The position numbers were made by a program, and so were the translations under genes. Positions 49,590 through 64,000 of a DNA stretch of 64,000 nucleotides are shown piece after piece. The stretch is from Haloarcula vallismortis ATCC 29715 (GTDB lineage Archaea; Halobacteriota; Halobacteria; Halobacteriales; Haloarculaceae). Position 1 is the first letter of the stretch; the number at the start of each line of letters is the position of its first letter. The stretch is taken from positions 1 through 64,000 of the forward strand of contig NZ_AOLQ01000056.1 in assembly GCF_000337775.1 (NCBI RefSeq), in the 5' to 3' direction. Below the pieces are notes generated by a model. That model saw only the letters and a list, made by a program, of their open reading frames with translations. It searched no databases and was not told where the DNA came from.

Positions 49590-50336
49590 GTGACAGCAAT
49601 CGAGATCGAGTCGCTCCGGAAGTCATACGGCGACATGACCGCGATAGCAGACCTGTCGCTGCGCATCGACGATGGTGAGTTCTTCGGCTTGCTCGGGCCC
49701 AACGGGGCCGGCAAGACCACGACCATGGAGATACTCACCGGGCAGCTGAGTCCGGATAGCGGGCAGGCAACAGTACTCGGTGCCGACCCTGCAGCCCAGC
49801 CCACGGTGGTCCGCGAACGGGCGGGAATTCTACCCGAAAAGGAGTCACCACCGAGTTTCATGACGCCGCGCGAGTACTTCGATTTTGTCGGTGCAATCCG
49901 GGATATACCCGCTGACGCGGTGACAGCGCAGACCGAGTCGTGGGCCGACCGGCTCGGCTTTACCGCGAAGCTCGACACGCTGTCTTCGGACCTTTCGCGG
50001 GGCCAACAGCAGAAAGTGATGATCGCCGGCGCGTTCTTCCACGAGCCGGATGTCGTGTTCATCGACGAACCGCTGGCGAATCTCGACCCGATTGTTCAGG
50101 AGCGGGTCAAGCGCTTCCTGCGCTCGTACCGGGACGCCGGCAACACAATTGTCGTCACCACACACGGCGTGGATGTCGCCGCTGAACTCTGTTCGCGGGT
50201 CGGAGTGATGTACGAAGGTGACCTCGTCGCCGATGTCCGACCGGCAGCACTCGATGCCGATGAGACGCTCCTCGACGTGTTTCTGGACACCGTCGACGCA
50301 ACAGTGGACCGGGAAGAACAAACTGTTGATATATGA
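49590..50336 (+). CDS. ABC transporter ATP-binding protein (ABC-2 exporter type)
   Basis: The 248-residue ATPase has Walker A GPNGAGKTT, the signature SSDLSRGQQQKVMIAG, Walker B VVFIDEPLANLDP and the H-loop TTHGVD. The signature's second Gly is Arg (LSRGQ), as in many ABC-2 type ATPases. A GTG start is used. It overlaps the permease by 4 bp (ATGA). The pair forms an exporter of unknown substrate. Confidence 0.9.
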   Translation: MTAIEIESLRKSYGDMTAIADLSLRIDDGEFFGLLGPNGAGKTTTMEILTGQLSPDSGQATVLGADPAAQPTVVRERAGILPEKESPPSFMTPREYFDFVGAIRDIPADAVTAQTESWADRLGFTAKLDTLSSDLSRGQQQKVMIAGAFFHEPDVVFIDEPLANLDPIVQERVKRFLRSYRDAGNTIVVTTHGVDVAAELCSRVGVMYEGDLVADVRPAALDADETLLDVFLDTVDATVDREEQTVDI

Positions 50337-51766
50337 GTGACGGACGGGTGCGCAGGGTGTTCGTCGAGATGCTCCGCGAGGAGTGGCGACTCCACAGCCG
50401 GCTCTTCCGTGGTAGTCACTTCTCCTTGTTTCCGGTGTTCATCTGCCTACTCGTTGGCGGCGCAGCCAAGCTGCTGACCGTTACCGGGACCGAACCGCAA
50501 ACCGTGTTCGCTGGTCTTCATGCACTGGTGTTCGTCTTCGGACTCCACACGGGATCTATCGGCTTTGTGGGACGCGATGCTATTCAGAACCTCCTCGGTG
50601 ACGTGACGCTGCTGGTGTTCTCTGCCCGCACGCTCCCGCTATCGCAGACCACGCTGCTGGGACTGTTCGTCGTCAAGGACAGTGTCTACTACGCTGTACT
50701 GTTTCTGCTACCGATCTCTGTCGGAACGGCGCTTGCAGTGCGGGGAATCGCTGGACCTCTTCTTGTCGTTGAGACCAGTACCTTTCTGTGGACGACACTG
50801 GCACTGATGTTCGTCTTCGGAATGGGAACGACGATTGCAGCGCTCGGTCTCGCTGGGCGGGGCGTCCCCGGACTGGCGCTACTCGTGGCCCCGCTCGTCG
50901 CTGTCGGTGCAGCGGTAGTCAGTGGTGTCGATATCGTTTCTTACACCCCCTATGGCCTGTTTCTCACCCAGACACCCCTGCGGGTCGGTACGACAGCTAC
51001 CGGTATCGTCGGCGTCTTTCTGCTGGGCGCAGTCACTTTCGATGCGACCGCGCCTCGTCCCGCTCAAACGGTCGAACCGGCCTTTGGCCGCTGGTGGCGA
51101 CGGCTCGGCGACCCAGTTGCAACGAAGAGCCTGCTCGACATCCACCGGAGCGCAGGCGGGTTCGGGAAGGTTTTCTTTTCGGCGGCGGTGCTGTTCGGCG
51201 TCACTGCCGCACTGGTCGATTTCGCCGGACAGATCACGGGAGTACCGCCGTCCACTGGTATCTCATTCGGTGCGATTCTCGGGCTCTCGGGGTTTACCAC
51301 ATACAACTGGCTCACGCAATCCGACGACGTCTCCCTGTATTTCACCCATCCGCTCTCTGTAAGAGCCGTTTTCGCGGGGAAGTTCCGGGCATTCCTCCTG
51401 CTCGGCCCGCTGGTGGGCCTCGCCTTCTACGCACTCGCACTCGTCTGGCGTGGCGGGCCGGTCGCTGAGGCCACTGTCGGGGCTGTCTTGCTTGTCGGCG
51501 TCGCCTGCTACATCTTCGGCACCACCGTCTATCTCACCGGCCTCTCTCCGAACGAGTTTCTCTTCGATACGGCACTGTTCGCTGTTTTCGGCGCGGCAAT
51601 GGTCCTCCCGCTGGTCCCGATACTCATTGCCGGATTCGCTATCTCGCCGCTGTCTGGGACGGTGCTTGCCGCGCTCGGTGGGTCTGGTGGCGTCTTGGGC
51701 GCTGTCGGTGTCGGTCTCTACCGTCGGTCGGTACCGAAGTGGGCGACGCGGTATCGACAGGCGTGA
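50333..51766 (+). CDS. ABC-2 type exporter permease
   Basis: The 477-residue protein has about twelve hydrophobic segments after a basic cytoplasmic start (MSDGRVRRVFVEMLREEWRL). This is typical of the large haloarchaeal ABC-2 permeases. The start overlaps the ATPase stop in an ATGA. No substrate domain is visible. Export of a peptide, lipid or ion is possible. Confidence 0.85.
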   Translation: MSDGRVRRVFVEMLREEWRLHSRLFRGSHFSLFPVFICLLVGGAAKLLTVTGTEPQTVFAGLHALVFVFGLHTGSIGFVGRDAIQNLLGDVTLLVFSARTLPLSQTTLLGLFVVKDSVYYAVLFLLPISVGTALAVRGIAGPLLVVETSTFLWTTLALMFVFGMGTTIAALGLAGRGVPGLALLVAPLVAVGAAVVSGVDIVSYTPYGLFLTQTPLRVGTTATGIVGVFLLGAVTFDATAPRPAQTVEPAFGRWWRRLGDPVATKSLLDIHRSAGGFGKVFFSAAVLFGVTAALVDFAGQITGVPPSTGISFGAILGLSGFTTYNWLTQSDDVSLYFTHPLSVRAVFAGKFRAFLLLGPLVGLAFYALALVWRGGPVAEATVGAVLLVGVACYIFGTTVYLTGLSPNEFLFDTALFAVFGAAMVLPLVPILIAGFAISPLSGTVLAALGGSGGVLGAVGVGLYRRSVPKWATRYRQA

Positions 51767-55503: not shown

Positions 55504-56883
55504 TCAGTCAGCCAGCGAGATGTTCTGCCGGAGGTCGTCTTCGATTGCCTCCAGCGTCCGGCCCTTCGTTTCGGGGACGTAGCTGTAGACAAACACCAGT
55601 CCCACGAGACTACAGAGGCCAAACAGCCAGAACGTCGCAGCGGTTCCGACGCCGTCTGTCAGAACGGGGAACGTCAGCGATACGAGGAGATTTGCACCCC
55701 AGTTGGCGACGGTGACGACACCCATCGCTGACCCGCGAACGGACAGCGGGTATATTTCTGAGATCAGGAGCCAGAAGACCGGGCCGAGCCCGATGGCGAA
55801 GAAGGACACGAACAGCATCAGACTGATCGTGGCGATGATGCCGAGGCCCCCGCCGAGACCGGGGAGGTAGAACACGGTACCGAGGACGACGAGTGTCGCA
55901 ACCATCCCACCGACACCGACAAGGAGCAGTCGGCGACGACCGACACGGTCGACGAGCAGGATCGCCACGACGGTCATCACCACGTTGATCGTCCCGATTC
56001 CGACTGTCGCAAGGATCGAGGCTACGTTCCCGAGGCCGGTAGACTCGAGAATCGTCGGGGCGTAGTAAATGACCGCGTTGATGCCGGTAATCTGCTGGAA
56101 CACGGCGAGTCCGAGCCCGACCACGAGTGCTGGGCGGAGCCACGGAGCCAGCAGGTCCCGAACGCCGGTTTCGGACTGTGTCTCGACGGTCTCTTCAATC
56201 TCGTCGAGTTCCTGCTCGACGCCACTGGACCGTGTCCGCTCGAGGACCGCTCTGGCCTCGTCTTTCTGCCCATGCTCGAAGAGCCAGCGTGGGCTCTCGG
56301 GCATTTTCAGGATGCCGATGGCGAGCACGACGGCCGGGACCATCCCGGCACCGAGCATCCAGCGCCACGCGCCGGCGTCGGCGAACGCGTAATTGACGAA
56401 ATACGAGAGCAGGATTCCGGTGGTCACCATGAGCTGATTGAGCGAGGTGAGCCCGCCGCGAATGCTGGGCGGCGCGATTTCGGAGATGTACAGCGGCCCA
56501 ACGATTGAGGCGAAGCCGATGGCGACGCCGTCGATAAGCCGACCGGCGACGAGGACGGGGACGTTCGGCGCGACGGCCATCGTGAACGACCCGACGAAGA
56601 ATACGATGGCCGCAATGAGGATGAGGCGGCGGCGACCGAGACGGTCGGCTAACTGGCCACCCACGGCCGCACCGGCCGCGGCCCCGGCCATCGCGCCACT
56701 GACGATGATCCCCTCGACGAGCGGCGACATGACGAACGAGTCCTGAATGAACAGGAACGCGCCCGAGATGATCCCGGTGTCGAACCCGAACAACAGTCCG
56801 TTCAGCGCAGCTAACGCGGAGACGACGTAAATGAACCGGTCGCCGTCACCGCGGAGGACATTACGGATGGTGGCTGTGGACAT
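55504..56883 (-). CDS. MFS sugar porter
   Basis: The 459-residue protein has twelve membrane segments and the sugar porter signatures. DRLGRRRLILI follows TM2, PESPRWLFEHG follows TM6, DRVGRRRLLLVG follows TM8, and PETKGRTLE closes the last helix. It should be a proton-sugar symporter or facilitator. The AT-rich region 56884-56910 before the ATG at 56883 fits a promoter. The fructosamine kinase-like gene opposite may be functionally linked through sugar metabolism. Confidence 0.9.
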   Translation of the reverse strand: MSTATIRNVLRGDGDRFIYVVSALAALNGLLFGFDTGIISGAFLFIQDSFVMSPLVEGIIVSGAMAGAAAGAAVGGQLADRLGRRRLILIAAIVFFVGSFTMAVAPNVPVLVAGRLIDGVAIGFASIVGPLYISEIAPPSIRGGLTSLNQLMVTTGILLSYFVNYAFADAGAWRWMLGAGMVPAVVLAIGILKMPESPRWLFEHGQKDEARAVLERTRSSGVEQELDEIEETVETQSETGVRDLLAPWLRPALVVGLGLAVFQQITGINAVIYYAPTILESTGLGNVASILATVGIGTINVVMTVVAILLVDRVGRRRLLLVGVGGMVATLVVLGTVFYLPGLGGGLGIIATISLMLFVSFFAIGLGPVFWLLISEIYPLSVRGSAMGVVTVANWGANLLVSLTFPVLTDGVGTAATFWLFGLCSLVGLVFVYSYVPETKGRTLEAIEDDLRQNISLAD

Positions 56884-57031: not shown

Positions 57032-58237
57032 TCACTCAACTGCACCTTCTGTAATGACTTTCGCGAGGTGCTCCCGGTCGAACAGATGCGTCTCTGTAAA
57101 CTCTTCAGGGAAGTAGCGCTTTGCGTACCGTTCAATCATAAACAGGTTATGCAGCGGGCCGGTGTAGATCGGGCCACCCCGAAACACCCTGTCATTCTGG
57201 ACGGCCCGCAACTGGCTGCCCACTTCGTGGTCTTTCATGTACCCGAGCACTGAGTTCTCGAACTCCTCACGGGTCTTCCCTTCTCGATGATATCGCAGAA
57301 GCAGTGAGTCAGGGTCTATCTCCAGTAACGTCTCGTAATCGAGCGATTCTGAGCCGGAGTACCCCTCGACTCCAGTATCGGCAAAGGCGTCGGAAATTCC
57401 GAGCGTGTGGAAGTGTTCCTTGTTTGCCCCGTTTCCGCTGATCCGATATGGCGTGAAATCCTCCGGTTTCTCGCCGGCGAACACCAGCGCGGCGTTTGGT
57501 CTGTCCGCTGGTGCCGGGAGCCGAGCCTGCACCGTTTCGACCAGTTCGTCATGTACCGAGCGGATCGCCTCGAAGCGCGCCCGTTCCTGAACCATCTCTG
57601 CGACTTTCTCGAACGCCTCGTACAGGCTGTAGTACTGGTAGTCGTGCCAGTCGTCGGTCCGCCGGAAGATGAGATTCCCGAGAAACGGCGCGACGTTCTC
57701 CTGAATCTCTGTGAGGTCAGACTGCTCCCACGCCCCGAGCCAGTCGATGAGTGCGTTGGGATCGATGAGGTGCAGGTCGGCGTCTATCTCGTAGAACAGC
57801 TCCTTCGAGACGCCGTCGTTCCAGAGCTGTGTGAGCCCGTCGAGGTCGATAGACACTCCATCTAGTTCCTCGTAGTGCAGCGTCTTGTACCGCCCACGGT
57901 ACCAGATTGACTGCACTGCGTCGCCGTGGCCGAGTGCGACCAACATATCGATGTAGTCCGCGGTGAACGGGGCGATTGTCTCGGGTACAGAGTCGAACTC
58001 GACGGTACCGACTGGCTCCATCGTCACCGAATACGACCCGTCGGAACCCGCTGATGCGGTCGCAGTAGCGCTTGTTTCGGTATCCGTGGCAGTGTCGCTG
58101 GCCTCCGTCGCTGACGACTCCTGACCGCTGTCGCCCAAGCATCCGGCGACCACTCCGCCACCAACGAGCGCCCCACTACCTTTCACAATGTCTCTCCGTG
58201 TCAGTCGCTCGAACGGTGCGGTATCCGAGTCTGTCAT
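57032..58237 (-). CDS. Iron-type ABC substrate-binding lipoprotein, third of three tandem copies
   Basis: The 401-residue protein has a Tat leader (RRDIVKGSGALVGG) with a lipobox VAGC, then a Ser/Thr/Glu-rich linker and a helical-backbone FhuD/BtuF-like domain. Landmarks are VPETIAPFTADYIDMLVALG, WHDYQYYSLYEAFEKVAEM and a LLEIDPDSLLLR. It starts in an ATGA overlap with the previous copy. The domain should bind a ferric siderophore or similar cargo at the cell surface. No permease or ATPase is in this window. It is the last of the operon. Confidence 0.85.
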   Translation of the reverse strand: MTDSDTAPFERLTRRDIVKGSGALVGGGVVAGCLGDSGQESSATEASDTATDTETSATATASAGSDGSYSVTMEPVGTVEFDSVPETIAPFTADYIDMLVALGHGDAVQSIWYRGRYKTLHYEELDGVSIDLDGLTQLWNDGVSKELFYEIDADLHLIDPNALIDWLGAWEQSDLTEIQENVAPFLGNLIFRRTDDWHDYQYYSLYEAFEKVAEMVQERARFEAIRSVHDELVETVQARLPAPADRPNAALVFAGEKPEDFTPYRISGNGANKEHFHTLGISDAFADTGVEGYSGSESLDYETLLEIDPDSLLLRYHREGKTREEFENSVLGYMKDHEVGSQLRAVQNDRVFRGGPIYTGPLHNLFMIERYAKRYFPEEFTETHLFDREHLAKVITEGAVE

Positions 58238-59424
58238 TCGAACTCACCTGTGACAATATCGGCGAGTTGCTGCCGGTCGAAGAGTTCGGCGTCGGAAGTC
58301 ACGTCGCCGAAAACATCCGGATAGAGCTGTTGGGCCGCCCGTTCGGTCAAGAAGAAATTGTGAATCGGACCCTGGCGGAGGTAGCCGCCGCGATACACGC
58401 GCCCGTTCTGTACCGCAGTCAGTTGACTGCCGACGCTGTGGTCTTGCATGAACTGCAGGACGGTCTCCCGGAACTCGGTCGCTGATTTCCGCTCGTGGCC
58501 GCGGATGAGGATAACGTCTGGATCGACCGACAGAAGCGTTTCGTAGTCGTATTCGCCCCGATTGGTCGTACTGAGGTTGTCGATATCGGTTCCGGCAAGC
58601 GCATCAGTAACGCCGAGGTCACGCCATTGTTTCTTGCTCGTGCCCTTGTCGCTCAGGCGATAGGGGGAGAACGATTCCGGTTCGTCGCTTCCCTCATACG
58701 TAAGAAGGACGTTTGGACGCTCCTCCGCCGGCGGGAGTTGATTCTGCAGGTCTGTGATATAGTCGTCGTGCAGTTGTTTGAACGTCTCGTAGCGCTCCCG
58801 TTCCTGAAAGACCTCCGCGACCGTCTCGAAGGCCTCATAAAGCGTGTAATACCGGTAATCGTGCCACTCATCGGAGCGACGGAATATCATGTTTCCGACG
58901 AACGGAGCGACGTTCTCGGCGATCTCGTCGACGTCTGACTGGGACCAGTCGAACCAGTTGACGAGCATCTGTGGGTCATAGAGGTGCACGTCGCTGTCGA
59001 GTTCGTAGAACTCCTCTTTCGTTCGGACCGCTGGATTCGCGTCGATTGTCCCCTGATCGACGGACACACCGGGGAGCTCATCGTAGACGTACGTGTAGTA
59101 GCGGTCTGCCCCGCCGAGACCTGTGAGGCCATCGGCCTGCCCGAGGGCCACGCCCATATCGGCGTAGGCGCCACCGTAAGGAAGCCATCGCTCGGGCATC
59201 GTCTGGAACGTCACTTCACCGACTGGCTCCATGGAGACGGTATATGCTTCCGTCTCTGTTGCTGTGGCTGTCTCAGCTGTCGCTCCGTTCTCGGTGGCAG
59301 TGGTTTCTGTCGCGGTATCGCCAGCACAGCCGGCGAGCAAACTGCCGCCCGCGATTACCCCGGCCCCCTTGATGTAGTCTCTGCGTGTCGGCCGTTCACG
59401 CGGCGTTTTTTCGCCGTCAGTCAC
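58234..59424 (-). CDS. Iron-type ABC substrate-binding lipoprotein, second of three tandem copies
   Basis: The 396-residue protein starts with GTG overlapping the previous stop (GTGA) and ends in an ATGA overlap. It has a Tat motif RRDYIKGAGVIAGG and lipobox LAGC. The segment WHDYRYYTLYEAFETVAEVF is nearly the same as in the neighbouring copies, as are LLSVDPDVILIRG and the closing region LFDRQQLADIV. The three copies arose by duplication. The differing binding-pocket parts suggest different cargo or different stages. Confidence 0.85.
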   Translation of the reverse strand: MTDGEKTPRERPTRRDYIKGAGVIAGGSLLAGCAGDTATETTATENGATAETATATETEAYTVSMEPVGEVTFQTMPERWLPYGGAYADMGVALGQADGLTGLGGADRYYTYVYDELPGVSVDQGTIDANPAVRTKEEFYELDSDVHLYDPQMLVNWFDWSQSDVDEIAENVAPFVGNMIFRRSDEWHDYRYYTLYEAFETVAEVFQERERYETFKQLHDDYITDLQNQLPPAEERPNVLLTYEGSDEPESFSPYRLSDKGTSKKQWRDLGVTDALAGTDIDNLSTTNRGEYDYETLLSVDPDVILIRGHERKSATEFRETVLQFMQDHSVGSQLTAVQNGRVYRGGYLRQGPIHNFFLTERAAQQLYPDVFGDVTSDAELFDRQQLADIVTGEFE

Positions 59425-60671
59425 TGTTTCTCACCCGTTATTATGTCAGCAACGCGCTGGCGGTCGAACAGCTGTTCCTCGGCGGGAATTTCGGGATAGG
59501 GACCCCCGTCGACGTAGCCCGGCCACTCACCGAACTCGTCGGGATACAGCTGTTTCGCGGTCATCTCCGTCTGGAACAGGTTCAGAATCGGCCCCTGTCG
59601 ACGAGCCCCCTGAGCGAATATTCGCCCTTGCTTGACGGCGGTGAGTTTCCTCGTCACCTCGTCGTTTTCCAATTGTGACCGAATCTCGTCGAGATTGTGG
59701 GACCCTGCCATTGGTCCGAGGACAAGCAGCACGTCCGGATCGGCTTCAAGCAGCAGTTCGGAGTCGAGCGTGATGTTCCGACCGTCATCGCCGTACCCGT
59801 CACCGACGGCATCGGCTAACGCATCGGTCGCACCCAGCGGGCGGGTGTGGGCAGCGTAGTAGCCCGGATGGTTCATCTTATAGCCCCAGACGTCCTCGCC
59901 GGATGTGGAGAACAGGACCAGGGCGGCGCTCGGTCGGTCACCTTCCGGCGGAAGGCCCGCGGCAATGGTCTCCATCATCGAATCGCGGACAGAGCTGAAC
60001 GCCCCGTATCGCTCCCCTTCTCGGAAGACCTCGGCGAGCTTTCCGAAGATCTCCCAGAGCGTGTAGTATTCGTACGTATCCGACCAGCCGGATGGCGGGT
60101 CCTGGTGCGTGCCGCTGAGTGTGTTTCCGAACCACGGGCCAACGTTCGACCCAATTTCCCGGAGGCTGCTGTTGTCCCACCCCTCGGCTGTCGCAACCTT
60201 TGCCGGGTCAGCTATGTGGACATCGCTGTCGAGTTCGTACAGTTCCTCCTTCGATGGTGGCCACGAGGAATACAGGTCCTCCCAGTCGATTGAGACTCCG
60301 TCGAGTCGGTGAAGGAACTTCTGATACAGCGACTGGTGGTACCCGGGCGCGTGCATGGCGTTAATCGCGTCGCCTCGACCGAGTGCGACCAGCATATCTA
60401 CGTGATGGCCCAGTATCGTGAACACGTTCTGGGGAACCGATTCGAACTCGACGGTCCCCGCGGGTGACATTGTAACAGAGTACCCGTCGTCACCCGCTGT
60501 CGGTTCGGCTGTTGCGGACGACTGTCCTCCCGAGTCTGTCCGGGACGGGGCTGACTCTGGGTCGGACTGATTGACACAGCCCGCTAGCAAGCCGCCAGCC
60601 ACCGCTGCGCCGCTATACTTCATGTAGTCACGTCTCGTCGGGGACTTGTGGTCCGGATAGTCTTTCGACAT
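59421..60671 (-). CDS. Iron-type ABC substrate-binding lipoprotein, first of three tandem copies
   Basis: The 416-residue protein is the first cistron behind the promoter. It has RRDYMKYSGAAVAGG and a lipobox LAGC, a Ser/Asp/Thr-rich linker, and the binding domain with VPQNVFTILGHHVDMLVALG, YEYYTLWEIFGKLAEVF and LLEADPDVLLVLGPMAGS. It ends in a GTGA overlap with the next copy. The start at 60671 is 25 bp from a TATA box, so the mRNA is probably leaderless. Two DtxR-like dyads flank that box, indicating iron control. The permease may be elsewhere. Confidence 0.87.
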   Translation of the reverse strand: MSKDYPDHKSPTRRDYMKYSGAAVAGGLLAGCVNQSDPESAPSRTDSGGQSSATAEPTAGDDGYSVTMSPAGTVEFESVPQNVFTILGHHVDMLVALGRGDAINAMHAPGYHQSLYQKFLHRLDGVSIDWEDLYSSWPPSKEELYELDSDVHIADPAKVATAEGWDNSSLREIGSNVGPWFGNTLSGTHQDPPSGWSDTYEYYTLWEIFGKLAEVFREGERYGAFSSVRDSMMETIAAGLPPEGDRPSAALVLFSTSGEDVWGYKMNHPGYYAAHTRPLGATDALADAVGDGYGDDGRNITLDSELLLEADPDVLLVLGPMAGSHNLDEIRSQLENDEVTRKLTAVKQGRIFAQGARRQGPILNLFQTEMTAKQLYPDEFGEWPGYVDGGPYPEIPAEEQLFDRQRVADIITGEKQ

Positions 60672-60690: not shown

Positions 60691-60700
60691 AAATATATAA
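60691..60700 (-). promoter_or_regulatory. TATA box of the iron-binding protein operon
   Basis: On the minus strand this reads TTATATATTT and is centred about 25 bp before the ATG at 60671. It lies directly next to the DtxR-like dyad. Confidence 0.65.
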
Positions 60701-60712
60701 CTGCTTCGGAAT

Positions 60713-60726
60713 TTAGGTGCGCCTGA
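60713..60726. promoter_or_regulatory. Second, weaker DtxR-like dyad
   Basis: TTAGGTGCGCCTGA has the same half sites (TTAGG and CCTgA) around a 4-bp centre. It lies on the far side of the TATA box from the first dyad, 36 bp away centre to centre. Together they could bind two repressor dimers. Confidence 0.5.
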
Positions 60727-61454: not shown

Positions 61455-61823
61455 CTGAGGTCGGTGCTGCTGTTGTGGTGCCGGTAGCCGACAACTGCGT
61501 AGCCGGGACAACATGCCCGGGCGAGTCATTGAACTGACTGCCTCGTCTTCTATACCGGGCGCATACTCGAGCGGCCACAACGAACAGTCTGGTAATCTCG
61601 CCGTCTACCATACCCAACTAATCCTCGACAGCCGAGTCTGTGTCTCTGTGAGCAGTGACCCGTTTCGCGGGAGGATCGTTGGTTCAGGCTGTGAAGCACC
61701 TGATTACGACCATGGTAGTGGTTTTCGGCTGCGCACCATTCAAAAAACATAATGTTCTATAATATACTTTTTCAGGAACGAATTGGTAGTATAGAAGAAT
61801 TTAATAACCAGTACGTTCGCACT
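61455..61823. other. Intergenic region with the promoter of the dab genes
   Basis: I see no gene. The right end is strongly AT-rich: a run with tctataatatactttttc near 61756-61773, and tttaataacc at 61800-61809, about 20-24 bp before the ATG at 61824, which is a likely TATA box. The rest shows no clear signal. Confidence 0.5.
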
Positions 61824-63377
61824 ATGGGTGAAGACAACCAGAACCGGTCAATCACAGTCCGTGATTACCGTGACCGGTTACGAACAACGATGTCAGGACA
61901 CAACTCACCGAAAATGGTCGGATCACTCCCGGACACGGCGGCTGACTCGCCGCTCGTGCCCGTCGCACTCACATGGCTCGTGTGGTCGATGTTCGCCGCG
62001 AGCATTGCTGTGCTTGCTGTCCGGGTCCGAACCGGGTTCGCCTGGGAGATACCCGGTGTGGTCGCCATCGACGGGCTGACCGTCCTGATGTGGGTGGTCG
62101 TCACCTTCTTCAGCGGTATCGTTCACAGCTACTCACGTCGCTATCTGGCTGGTAGTCGCCTCAAAACGCCCTTTTTCGCTACCGTGTTCGGCTTCACAGT
62201 GGTTGTGATGGGGCTGGTCGCGGCTGACCACCTCGCCCTGTTCGGGACGCTGTGGCTCGCAATGGGGCTGCTGATGGCGAAACTCATCGGTATCGTCAGC
62301 GGCTGGGACCAGGCACAGGCAGCTGCCACGGTCGCCCGCAAGTACTTCATCGCCAGCAGCGGGCTTCTCGCCGTCGCGCTGACGGCACTGTGGTGGGTGA
62401 CCGGCGCGACATCGGTCTCAGGAATCACGGCGGCTGCCGACTCATTCGGTGGCCCGGCGTGGCTGGTCGCCGCAGGCGCACTCGTGCTTGCAGCGATGAT
62501 TCAGTCCGCCCTCATCCCATTTCAGGGCTGGCTCCTGTCCTCGATGACCGCCCCGACGCCCGCGTCGGCGCTGATGCACGCCGGGTTCGTCAACGCAGGC
62601 GGCATCCTGCTGACCCGCTTTGCGCCGGTCATCACTGTCGACCCCGCGCTCATGCTTGCAATCGTCGGCGTCGGCGGCGCCAGCGCCATCGGCGGGAAAC
62701 TCCTGAAATCAGTGCAGACGGACATCAAGGGCAAACTCGGCTGTTCGACGATCGGACAGATGGGGTTCATGATTATGCAGGCCGGCCTCGGCTTCTTCGG
62801 AGCGGCTATCACCCACCTCATCCTGCACGGCTTCTACAAGGCCTACCAGTTCCTCAGCGCCGGCGGACAGGTCGAACACGCTAGCCCGAGCGAGGGGACG
62901 CCACACACAATCGGAACGACGGCGAGCATCGCCGGCATCGTCGTCACACTGCTGACTGGCATCGCCGGCGGCGCGGTGTTTGCACTGTTGACAGGCAAAG
63001 GAATGAAGTTCGACAGTGGTCTCCTGCTGACGTTCTTCGTAGTGTTTACGACGCTTCATGCAGCCCGCAACGCCGTCCAGCAGACCACGCTTCCGAGAGT
63101 GGCCCGCTACGGGGCCGTCCCGGTGGTTTTCTTCCCGGCCATCGTCGTCTACGCCGCAGTCTACACGAGCGTTTCGGGGCTCATGCCTGTCAGTCCCGCA
63201 ACGACCGAACTGACGCTGCTACACGGCATCATCGCCGCCGTCTTTGTTGGCATTTACACCGCCATCGAGACCGGTATCCACGAGCGCAGCCAGCGCCTCT
63301 ACGTGGTGTTGCTGAACGCCGGCCAGCCGGCAGCCGACACTGTGCTGACCACGACGGAGGACTACAATGAGTACTGA
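61824..63377 (+). CDS. DabB-type inorganic carbon pump membrane subunit (NuoL-like)
   Basis: The 517-residue protein is a proton-conducting NuoL/MrpA-like membrane protein with about fourteen segments. Landmarks are the VVVTFFSGIVHSYSRRYLAG segment, IPFQGWLLSSMTAPTPASAL and MHAGFVNAGGILLTRF. In the DAB system it couples ion flow to the DabA carbonic anhydrase-like subunit. The stop overlaps the dabA-like start by 11 bp. A start at 61752 would add a non-family extension; 61824 has a TATA box at leaderless distance. Confidence 0.85.
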   Translation: MGEDNQNRSITVRDYRDRLRTTMSGHNSPKMVGSLPDTAADSPLVPVALTWLVWSMFAASIAVLAVRVRTGFAWEIPGVVAIDGLTVLMWVVVTFFSGIVHSYSRRYLAGSRLKTPFFATVFGFTVVVMGLVAADHLALFGTLWLAMGLLMAKLIGIVSGWDQAQAAATVARKYFIASSGLLAVALTALWWVTGATSVSGITAAADSFGGPAWLVAAGALVLAAMIQSALIPFQGWLLSSMTAPTPASALMHAGFVNAGGILLTRFAPVITVDPALMLAIVGVGGASAIGGKLLKSVQTDIKGKLGCSTIGQMGFMIMQAGLGFFGAAITHLILHGFYKAYQFLSAGGQVEHASPSEGTPHTIGTTASIAGIVVTLLTGIAGGAVFALLTGKGMKFDSGLLLTFFVVFTTLHAARNAVQQTTLPRVARYGAVPVVFFPAIVVYAAVYTSVSGLMPVSPATTELTLLHGIIAAVFVGIYTAIETGIHERSQRLYVVLLNAGQPAADTVLTTTEDYNEY

Positions 63378-64000
63378 ATCCACCATCCACGACAGTATCG
63401 ACACCGCAGCGACCACCGTCGGCTCACTCTGGCCAATCCACTCGTTTGTGACGGCAAACCCCCTCGCGGGGTTCGAGGATCAGGAGTTCAGTGAGGCGGT
63501 TGCGCAGGCGGCCGACCTGCTGGGCGGCCGTGGCTACCCCAGCGCCGAGACGTTCCGTGCGGCGCTGCAGCGCGGCCAGATCGATCTGGAGATTCTCGAC
63601 GCGGAGCTCTCCGAAGCCGGCTACGAAAACGACCCAGAGACACTGCTCGACCGGATGGCCGAAGTAACCGATGCAACGGACAGTGACCCCGACACGTCCA
63701 CGGATCGCGTCGACCAAGTGTTGACAAAATGGCTGTCGGCGTTCCTCGACGAAGGGAGCGCCCACTGGTCGATGCCGAACCGCAAAGCGGGGTTCTACAC
63801 TGCCTTCCGCGGGGTTGCCGAACACGACAGCGAGGTTCCTAGCGAGGGGATTATCACCGACCTGCCGGAGACGCCGACCGAGACCATTGAAACGGTGCTC
63901 GCGTCGTACTCAGAGAGCCAGTGGGTGCCTATCTTCGAGCAGCAACTGGCCGCCCTCCCGGGCTGGACGGGACTTATCAAGCAGCGTGCCGACGACGACG
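63367..64000 (+). CDS. DabA-type (DUF2309) inorganic carbon pump subunit, cut by window edge
   Basis: From the ATG at 63367, 634 bases remain open to the window end (about 211 codons). The start reads MSTESTIHDSIDTAATTVGS, followed by WPIHSFVTANPLAGFEDQEF, the recognisable N-terminus of the DUF2309/DabA family. DabA is a zinc carbonic-anhydrase-like cytoplasmic subunit that turns CO2 into bicarbonate in an energy-coupled pump. The zinc site lies beyond the window. The 11-bp overlap with the dabB-like gene shows coupled expression. Confidence 0.87.
   Translation, partial: MSTESTIHDSIDTAATTVGSLWPIHSFVTANPLAGFEDQEFSEAVAQAADLLGGRGYPSAETFRAALQRGQIDLEILDAELSEAGYENDPETLLDRMAEVTDATDSDPDTSTDRVDQVLTKWLSAFLDEGSAHWSMPNRKAGFYTAFRGVAEHDSEVPSEGIITDLPETPTETIETVLASYSESQWVPIFEQQLAALPGWTGLIKQRADDD

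Follow-up and report, generated by a model that had tools for sequence, protein, structure and literature searches.

A permease-less tandem array of three binding-protein genes in Haloarcula vallismortis, probably encoding ferri-siderophore receptors that share one FecCD transporter

Three overlapping genes for substrate-binding proteins (SBPs) of the iron type follow one another in a 64,000-nucleotide stretch of the genome of Haloarcula vallismortis ATCC 29715 (contig NZ_AOLQ01000056.1, positions 1 to 64,000; hereafter the window), and a profile search found no FecCD permease in the window or on contig C56. This raises the question of what three binding proteins do without a pump beside them. 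Here we propose, as a reading we hold to be quite probable, that the array forms one iron-repressed operon, that its products are three ferri-siderophore receptors, probably of different cargo, and that they share one FecCD transporter and scavenge siderophores made by others. The proposal draws on gene order, iron boxes, fold, the numbers of receptors and permeases, and kinship with receptors encoded in permease operons and beside siderophore synthetases, all as read in the sequence.

The array genes (SBP3, SBP2 and SBP1; Table 1) had been described, in an original prediction made from the DNA letters, as three paralogous Tat lipoproteins with 4-bp overlaps, and this description holds. SBP2 starts with a GTG inside the SBP3 stop (GTGA), the ATG of SBP1 overlaps the SBP2 stop (ATGA), and a twin-arginine motif (TRRDY/TRRDI) and a lipobox (LAGC/VAGC) can be read by eye at the N-terminus of each protein. 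The pairwise comparison that had been proposed as a check gave identities between mature proteins of 48.6% (SBP2–SBP1), 41.2% (SBP1–SBP3) and 38.1% (SBP2–SBP3). The segment said to be common to the copies, WHDY-x-YY-S/T-L-Y/W-E, is exact in SBP1 (WHDYQYYSLYE) and SBP2 (WHDYRYYTLYE) only; SBP3 reads WSDTYEYYTLWE at the corresponding place, and across 71 aligned members the WHDY-type segment is a trait of the family, not of the array. Among the 99 of 107 SBP open reading frames that could be counted (eight were dropped because the start motif was missing), GGTGA lies within the last nine codons in 19 of 61 family genes that have a further gene of the set behind them, against 3 of 38 that do not; as the sequences are related, this is no more than suggestive of a Shine-Dalgarno role.

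SBP1 and SBP2 score above the PF01497 cut-off (Peripla_BP_2; 52.3 and 57.7 bits against 27.5) and SBP3 falls just short of it (26.5). The AlphaFold models of SBP2 and SBP3 (pLDDT 93.8 and 92.6; pTM 0.92 each) have the class III binding-protein fold with its long linking helix. The best Foldseek matches of these two models are iron/siderophore or unnamed periplasmic binding proteins, and the matches include PiaA with ferrichrome, CeuE, YfiY with schizokinen, HtsA with staphyloferrin A and VatD with Desferal, at moderate TM-scores of about 0.5–0.77; the 16 sequences that the family profile retrieved from the PDB are named as iron/siderophore or periplasmic binding proteins. In BtuCD-F, a glutamate–arginine pairing docks the binding protein on the permease. 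Two glutamates, E77 and E235, one per lobe, are invariant in 71 of 71 SBPs of the family, and arginines 96, 99 and 336 of a FecCD permease encoded on contig C54 align with BtuC positions 56, 59 and 295 (counted by hand).

Iron boxes are found upstream of SBP3 (Table 1); no separate box precedes SBP2 or SBP1. Both boxes are kept in all 12 related arrays (11 genomes of the genus and Haloarcula hispanica). We take the TTAGG-N4-CCTAA type of palindrome to be the haloarchaeal FerR motif. Perfect sites number 16 in the 3.92-Mb genome, against two for a reversed control pattern, and seven of the 16 precede the array, four solo SBP genes, the operon on C54 and the SBP gene on C54. Four genes of the DtxR family score above the PF01325 cut-off, and the spacing of about 25 bp between TATA-like element and ATG would fit a leaderless transcript. 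On C4 of G000, two perfect boxes 36 bp apart (L092:4180-4229) precede the gene of a DtxR-family repressor (L092:3369-3791) by ~390 bp, and a perfect box stands directly before a lipoprotein-like gene with DUF5059 and a copper-binding domain (L093:4576-7063).

Table 1. Genes of the array and elements of its promoter region, in window coordinates.
Feature	Position	Strand	Description
SBP3	59421..60671	minus	first array gene; Tat lipoprotein; class III (PF01497-like) binding protein; 416 aa
SBP2	58234..59424	minus	second array gene; Tat lipoprotein; PF01497; 396 aa
SBP1	57032..58237	minus	third array gene; Tat lipoprotein; PF01497; 401 aa
Perfect iron box TTAGG-N4-CCTAA	60677..60690		between TATA-like element and SBP3 start codon
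Second iron box, one mismatch	60713..60726		~36 bp further upstream of the perfect box
TATA-like element TTATATAT	60693..60700	minus	read from the sequence and promoter rows; about 25 bp from the ATG

Where, then, is the pump? The original prediction had suggested related cargo specificities feeding one transporter elsewhere, and the rest of the genome (a draft of 69 contigs, 99.8% complete) supports this well. A search for a lone permease/ATPase pair yielded one siderophore-type operon, on C54, composed of FAD oxidoreductase, permease, ATPase and SBP, and the same iron boxes precede it and the array. The family SBPs number eight, three in the array and one each on C42, C65, C38, C54 and C15, with four weaker matches that cover short stretches near the start alone set aside. 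Two FecCD permeases score above the cut-off, on C54 and C69. Of the 32 genomes of the genus, 31 have relatives of the C69 permease, at 37–42% identity to the C54 permease, and two genomes of good completeness carry a C69-type permease and no SBP of the array family; the C69 permease appears to be of the B12 type.

The same imbalance is seen across the genus. SBPs of the array family are present in 29 of the 32 genomes, 221 in all against 51 siderophore-type permeases, the latter tallied by hand from matches of at least 56% identity, with split pieces merged, partial matches in G005 and G026 counted as one each, and the 37–42% group left aside as B12-type. SBPs outnumber permeases in 25 genomes, and seven, that of H. 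vallismortis included, combine five or more SBPs with a single siderophore-type permease.

Two further observations concern the permease operons themselves. The H. vallismortis C54 operon (L027:10583 onwards) stops after one SBP gene, relatives (L062, L063, L071 and L064) have a second, and the sequence past the SBP stop still resembles the start of that second gene. The FAD-dependent oxidoreductase (L027:6203-7189), a candidate ferri-siderophore reductase, is kept beside the FecCD permease in several permease operons and is found once in a permease-less SBP array (L055).

Members of all three array clades occur in permease operons. In a maximum-likelihood tree of 98 of 99 SBPs (one of <300 aa was dropped), SBP1, SBP2 and SBP3 fall into clades of 14, 15 and 12 sequences, each with support of 100/100, and the SBP3 clade joins the C54-type SBPs (97/69). 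In the SBP1 clade are the SBPs that immediately follow the ATPase in permease operons of two genomes (G006 and G015); in the SBP2 clade, one that follows the ATPase in Halobacterium hubeiense and another encoded downstream of the permease in G009; and in the SBP3 clade, one encoded upstream of FAD oxidoreductase and permease in G016. From this kinship, the receptor and permease counts and the common boxes, we infer that the array shares the C54 pump.

As to cargo, the SBP2 clade also takes in an SBP whose gene adjoins IucA/IucC in Halostagnicola larsenii, along with SBPs of IucA/IucC clusters in three genomes of our set (G007, G001 and G020), and this position beside IucA/IucC suggests citrate-hydroxamate siderophores as the SBP2 ligand, a lead that SBP2 alone of the three copies offers. 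IucA/IucC was found in 15 of the 32 genomes of the genus, that of H. vallismortis not among them, and the available text of one paper notes such genes in soil and sediment haloarchaea (PMC3102087). Nor was an NRPS condensation domain found in the H. vallismortis genome, in a search for siderophore synthesis confined to the IucA/IucC and NRPS classes. Because both are missing, a self-made siderophore of either class is unlikely, and other organisms probably make the siderophores that the receptors bind. No simple rule of piracy follows, as IucA/IucC-bearing genomes have more SBPs than those without. An ABC exporter-like protein beside IucA/IucC clusters and in permease operons (L097:2015-3949, L098:14091-15968, L099:9384-11318, L100:8398-10311, L058:5862-7805, L064:3886-5835), with PF00664 and PF00005 in the three that were checked (L058, L064, L097), is a candidate siderophore exporter, alternative to the RND protein proposed in Haloferax volcanii.

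Are the three copies merely one receptor multiplied? Their fold and promoter are common, as would be expected if three proteins bound the same siderophore and so raised receptor number on the cell surface, but copies that are 38–49% identical and belong to separate old clades are unlike recent copies retained for dosage, and we consider this explanation unlikely. A recent tandem duplication without conservation, which would have undone the original prediction, can be rejected: the clades of the three copies are distinct and fully supported, many genomes hold orthologs of each, and other Haloarcula genomes carry the array too. Median dN/dS values are 0.086, 0.080 and 0.139 for the three array SBPs and 0.052 for the permease, and purifying selection acts on SBP1, SBP2 and SBP3 alike, which, like the relatives of each copy in permease operons, favours cargo diversity with one transporter.

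By our reading of the loci, at least two close orthologs stand in tandem in 13 of the 32 genomes, H. vallismortis included. All three genes are intact in nine of these 13 arrays, and the overlap is retained at 11 of 11 SBP3–SBP2 and 11 of 11 SBP2–SBP1 junctions. Such strict overlap could be taken to favour the relay that had also been proposed, in which the three lipoproteins, all needed together, hand iron or a siderophore along before it reaches the permease, and the available text of PMC13293324 cites a shuttle mechanism involving exchange of iron for YxeB of Bacillus cereus. Single members are nevertheless missing or broken in relatives: SBP3 is broken by a TAG in G020, SBP1 is missing from the array of G024, and in G031 SBP3 is followed by a chimera (L066:8490-9662) that places an SBP2-type Tat signal and linker on an SBP1-type mature domain, with no separate SBP2, as if recombination between tandem copies had removed it. 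Each clade, moreover, has members in permease operons that lack members of the other two, and a relay thus seems very improbable.

Arrays can also be extended or altered, with SBP2 and SBP1 orthologs standing beside two other SBPs in G012, and more distant SBP2- and SBP1-clade members following a FAD oxidoreductase in the same order in G021. The chances seem evenly balanced that the array is a movable receptor cassette, in which haloarchaea lose, fuse, break and add tandem siderophore-receptor genes, an extra fourth gene among them, around one conserved pump, while a species that lacks the usual synthetases draws on many siderophores of other organisms via a single permease serving eight receptors.

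Least probable of all, and very improbable in itself, is another cargo or role (F420-0 precursor, cobamide or haem binding, or service as receptors for chemotaxis transducers, as BasB and CosB are in Halobacterium). The F420-0 binding protein model TIGR03868, to which SBP1 and SBP3 have their sole NCBIfam match and SBP2 the better of two, is rejected on score: its cut-off is 392.4 bits, and the array proteins reach 35.9, 20.9 and 26.8. Iron boxes, permease and synthetase linkage and fold matches favour ferri-siderophores, and the annotation around the H. hispanica array shows no transducer.

Several observations weigh against the proposed reading as a whole. Seven of the 32 genomes show no excess of SBPs over permeases, and among relatives with the array G007 and G008 have two siderophore-type permeases each and G028 has three. 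One of 66 SBP1 pairs gave a dN/dS of 2.39, and one of the four IucA/IucC-linked SBPs tested (G028) falls outside the SBP2 clade. In the permease operons of G009 (L061) and G016 (L065) no ATPase was found next to the permease; transporter subunits can be scattered.

We suggest the following course of events. Under iron scarcity, a DtxR-family repressor of the FerR/Idr type would come off the two boxes that flank the TATA element, and the derepressed promoter would yield one transcript for the three array genes, whose translation the GTGA and ATGA overlaps would couple. Each lipoprotein would be exported by the Tat pathway, anchored outside the membrane and bind its own ferri-siderophore. Once loaded, it may dock via the two invariant glutamates on the C54 FecCD permease, with the C54 ATPase driving import, and the five further paralogs under the same box would feed the same pump.

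The surroundings of the array are collinear with H. hispanica pHH400: genes of the DabA/DabB type flank it on one side, those of the sugar porter and a fructosamine kinase on the other. SBP2 is 85–88% identical to annotated plasmid copies in H. hispanica, Haloarcula marismortui and Haloarcula sinaiiensis. H. hispanica, a laboratory strain, carries the array on pHH400 and has a permease of 95% identity (G007:C2:310809-311921) besides a second one. In the window, a sugar-porter MFS protein is encoded at 55504-56883, and a proton-antiporter-like gene and a DabA gene at 61752-63999 adjoin the array, as both do in H. hispanica; the DabA product is a probable inorganic carbon transporter. The original prediction was right that the window holds no FecCD permease and overlooked an ABC ATPase (49590-50336), unrelated to the array and paired with a membrane protein (50333-51766) that we read as ABC-2-like. 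A permease missed beside the array can be rejected, given that C56 carries no FecCD gene and this ATPase partners a different membrane protein.

How does the array compare with known systems? A search of a limited paper collection found no permease-less SBP array in archaea. Haloferax volcanii has 11 paralogous FhuD proteins and two permeases, with an iron-regulon (ferR) signal before all fhu genes and operons, and five of the 11 FhuD proteins rise more than 4-fold on iron starvation (available text of PMC11349517, citing Leyn and Rodionov, 2015). Many paralogous siderophore-binding proteins, few permeases and iron-regulon signals are common to both species; a permease-less tandem array goes unmentioned for H. 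volcanii in that text, and H. volcanii has IucA/IucC, which H. vallismortis lacks, as well as a siderophore synthesis cluster, as predicted. On pSTJ001 of Halobacterium hubeiense, an operon of SBP, FAD oxidoreductase, FecCD permease, ATPase and four SBPs likewise has SBPs in tandem, one of them a 77% relative of SBP2, but joins them to permease and ATPase. In Staphylococcus aureus, the lipoprotein receptors FhuD1 and FhuD2, which are iron-regulated, serve foreign siderophores and differ in hydroxamate range, are encoded apart from the FhuCBG operon (available text of PMC9598555); there, however, two receptors are under bacterial Fur control, whereas here there are eight, three of them overlapping, with DtxR-type boxes. 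Because H. volcanii and S. aureus, as far as these texts describe them, show several receptors per few pumps, the permease-less triple array belongs to a kind of iron-scavenging system already known in haloarchaea. H. vallismortis offers a clean test of how many receptors a FecCD pump can serve: a single such permease stands against eight receptors that have the box in common, and some relatives naturally lack one array gene or another. It also suggests that use of foreign siderophores may be a main route to iron for some haloarchaea. That a pump can have several receptors is not new in principle; what the array adds is a tandem set that is conserved, modular and co-regulated, in a genome lacking the usual synthetases.

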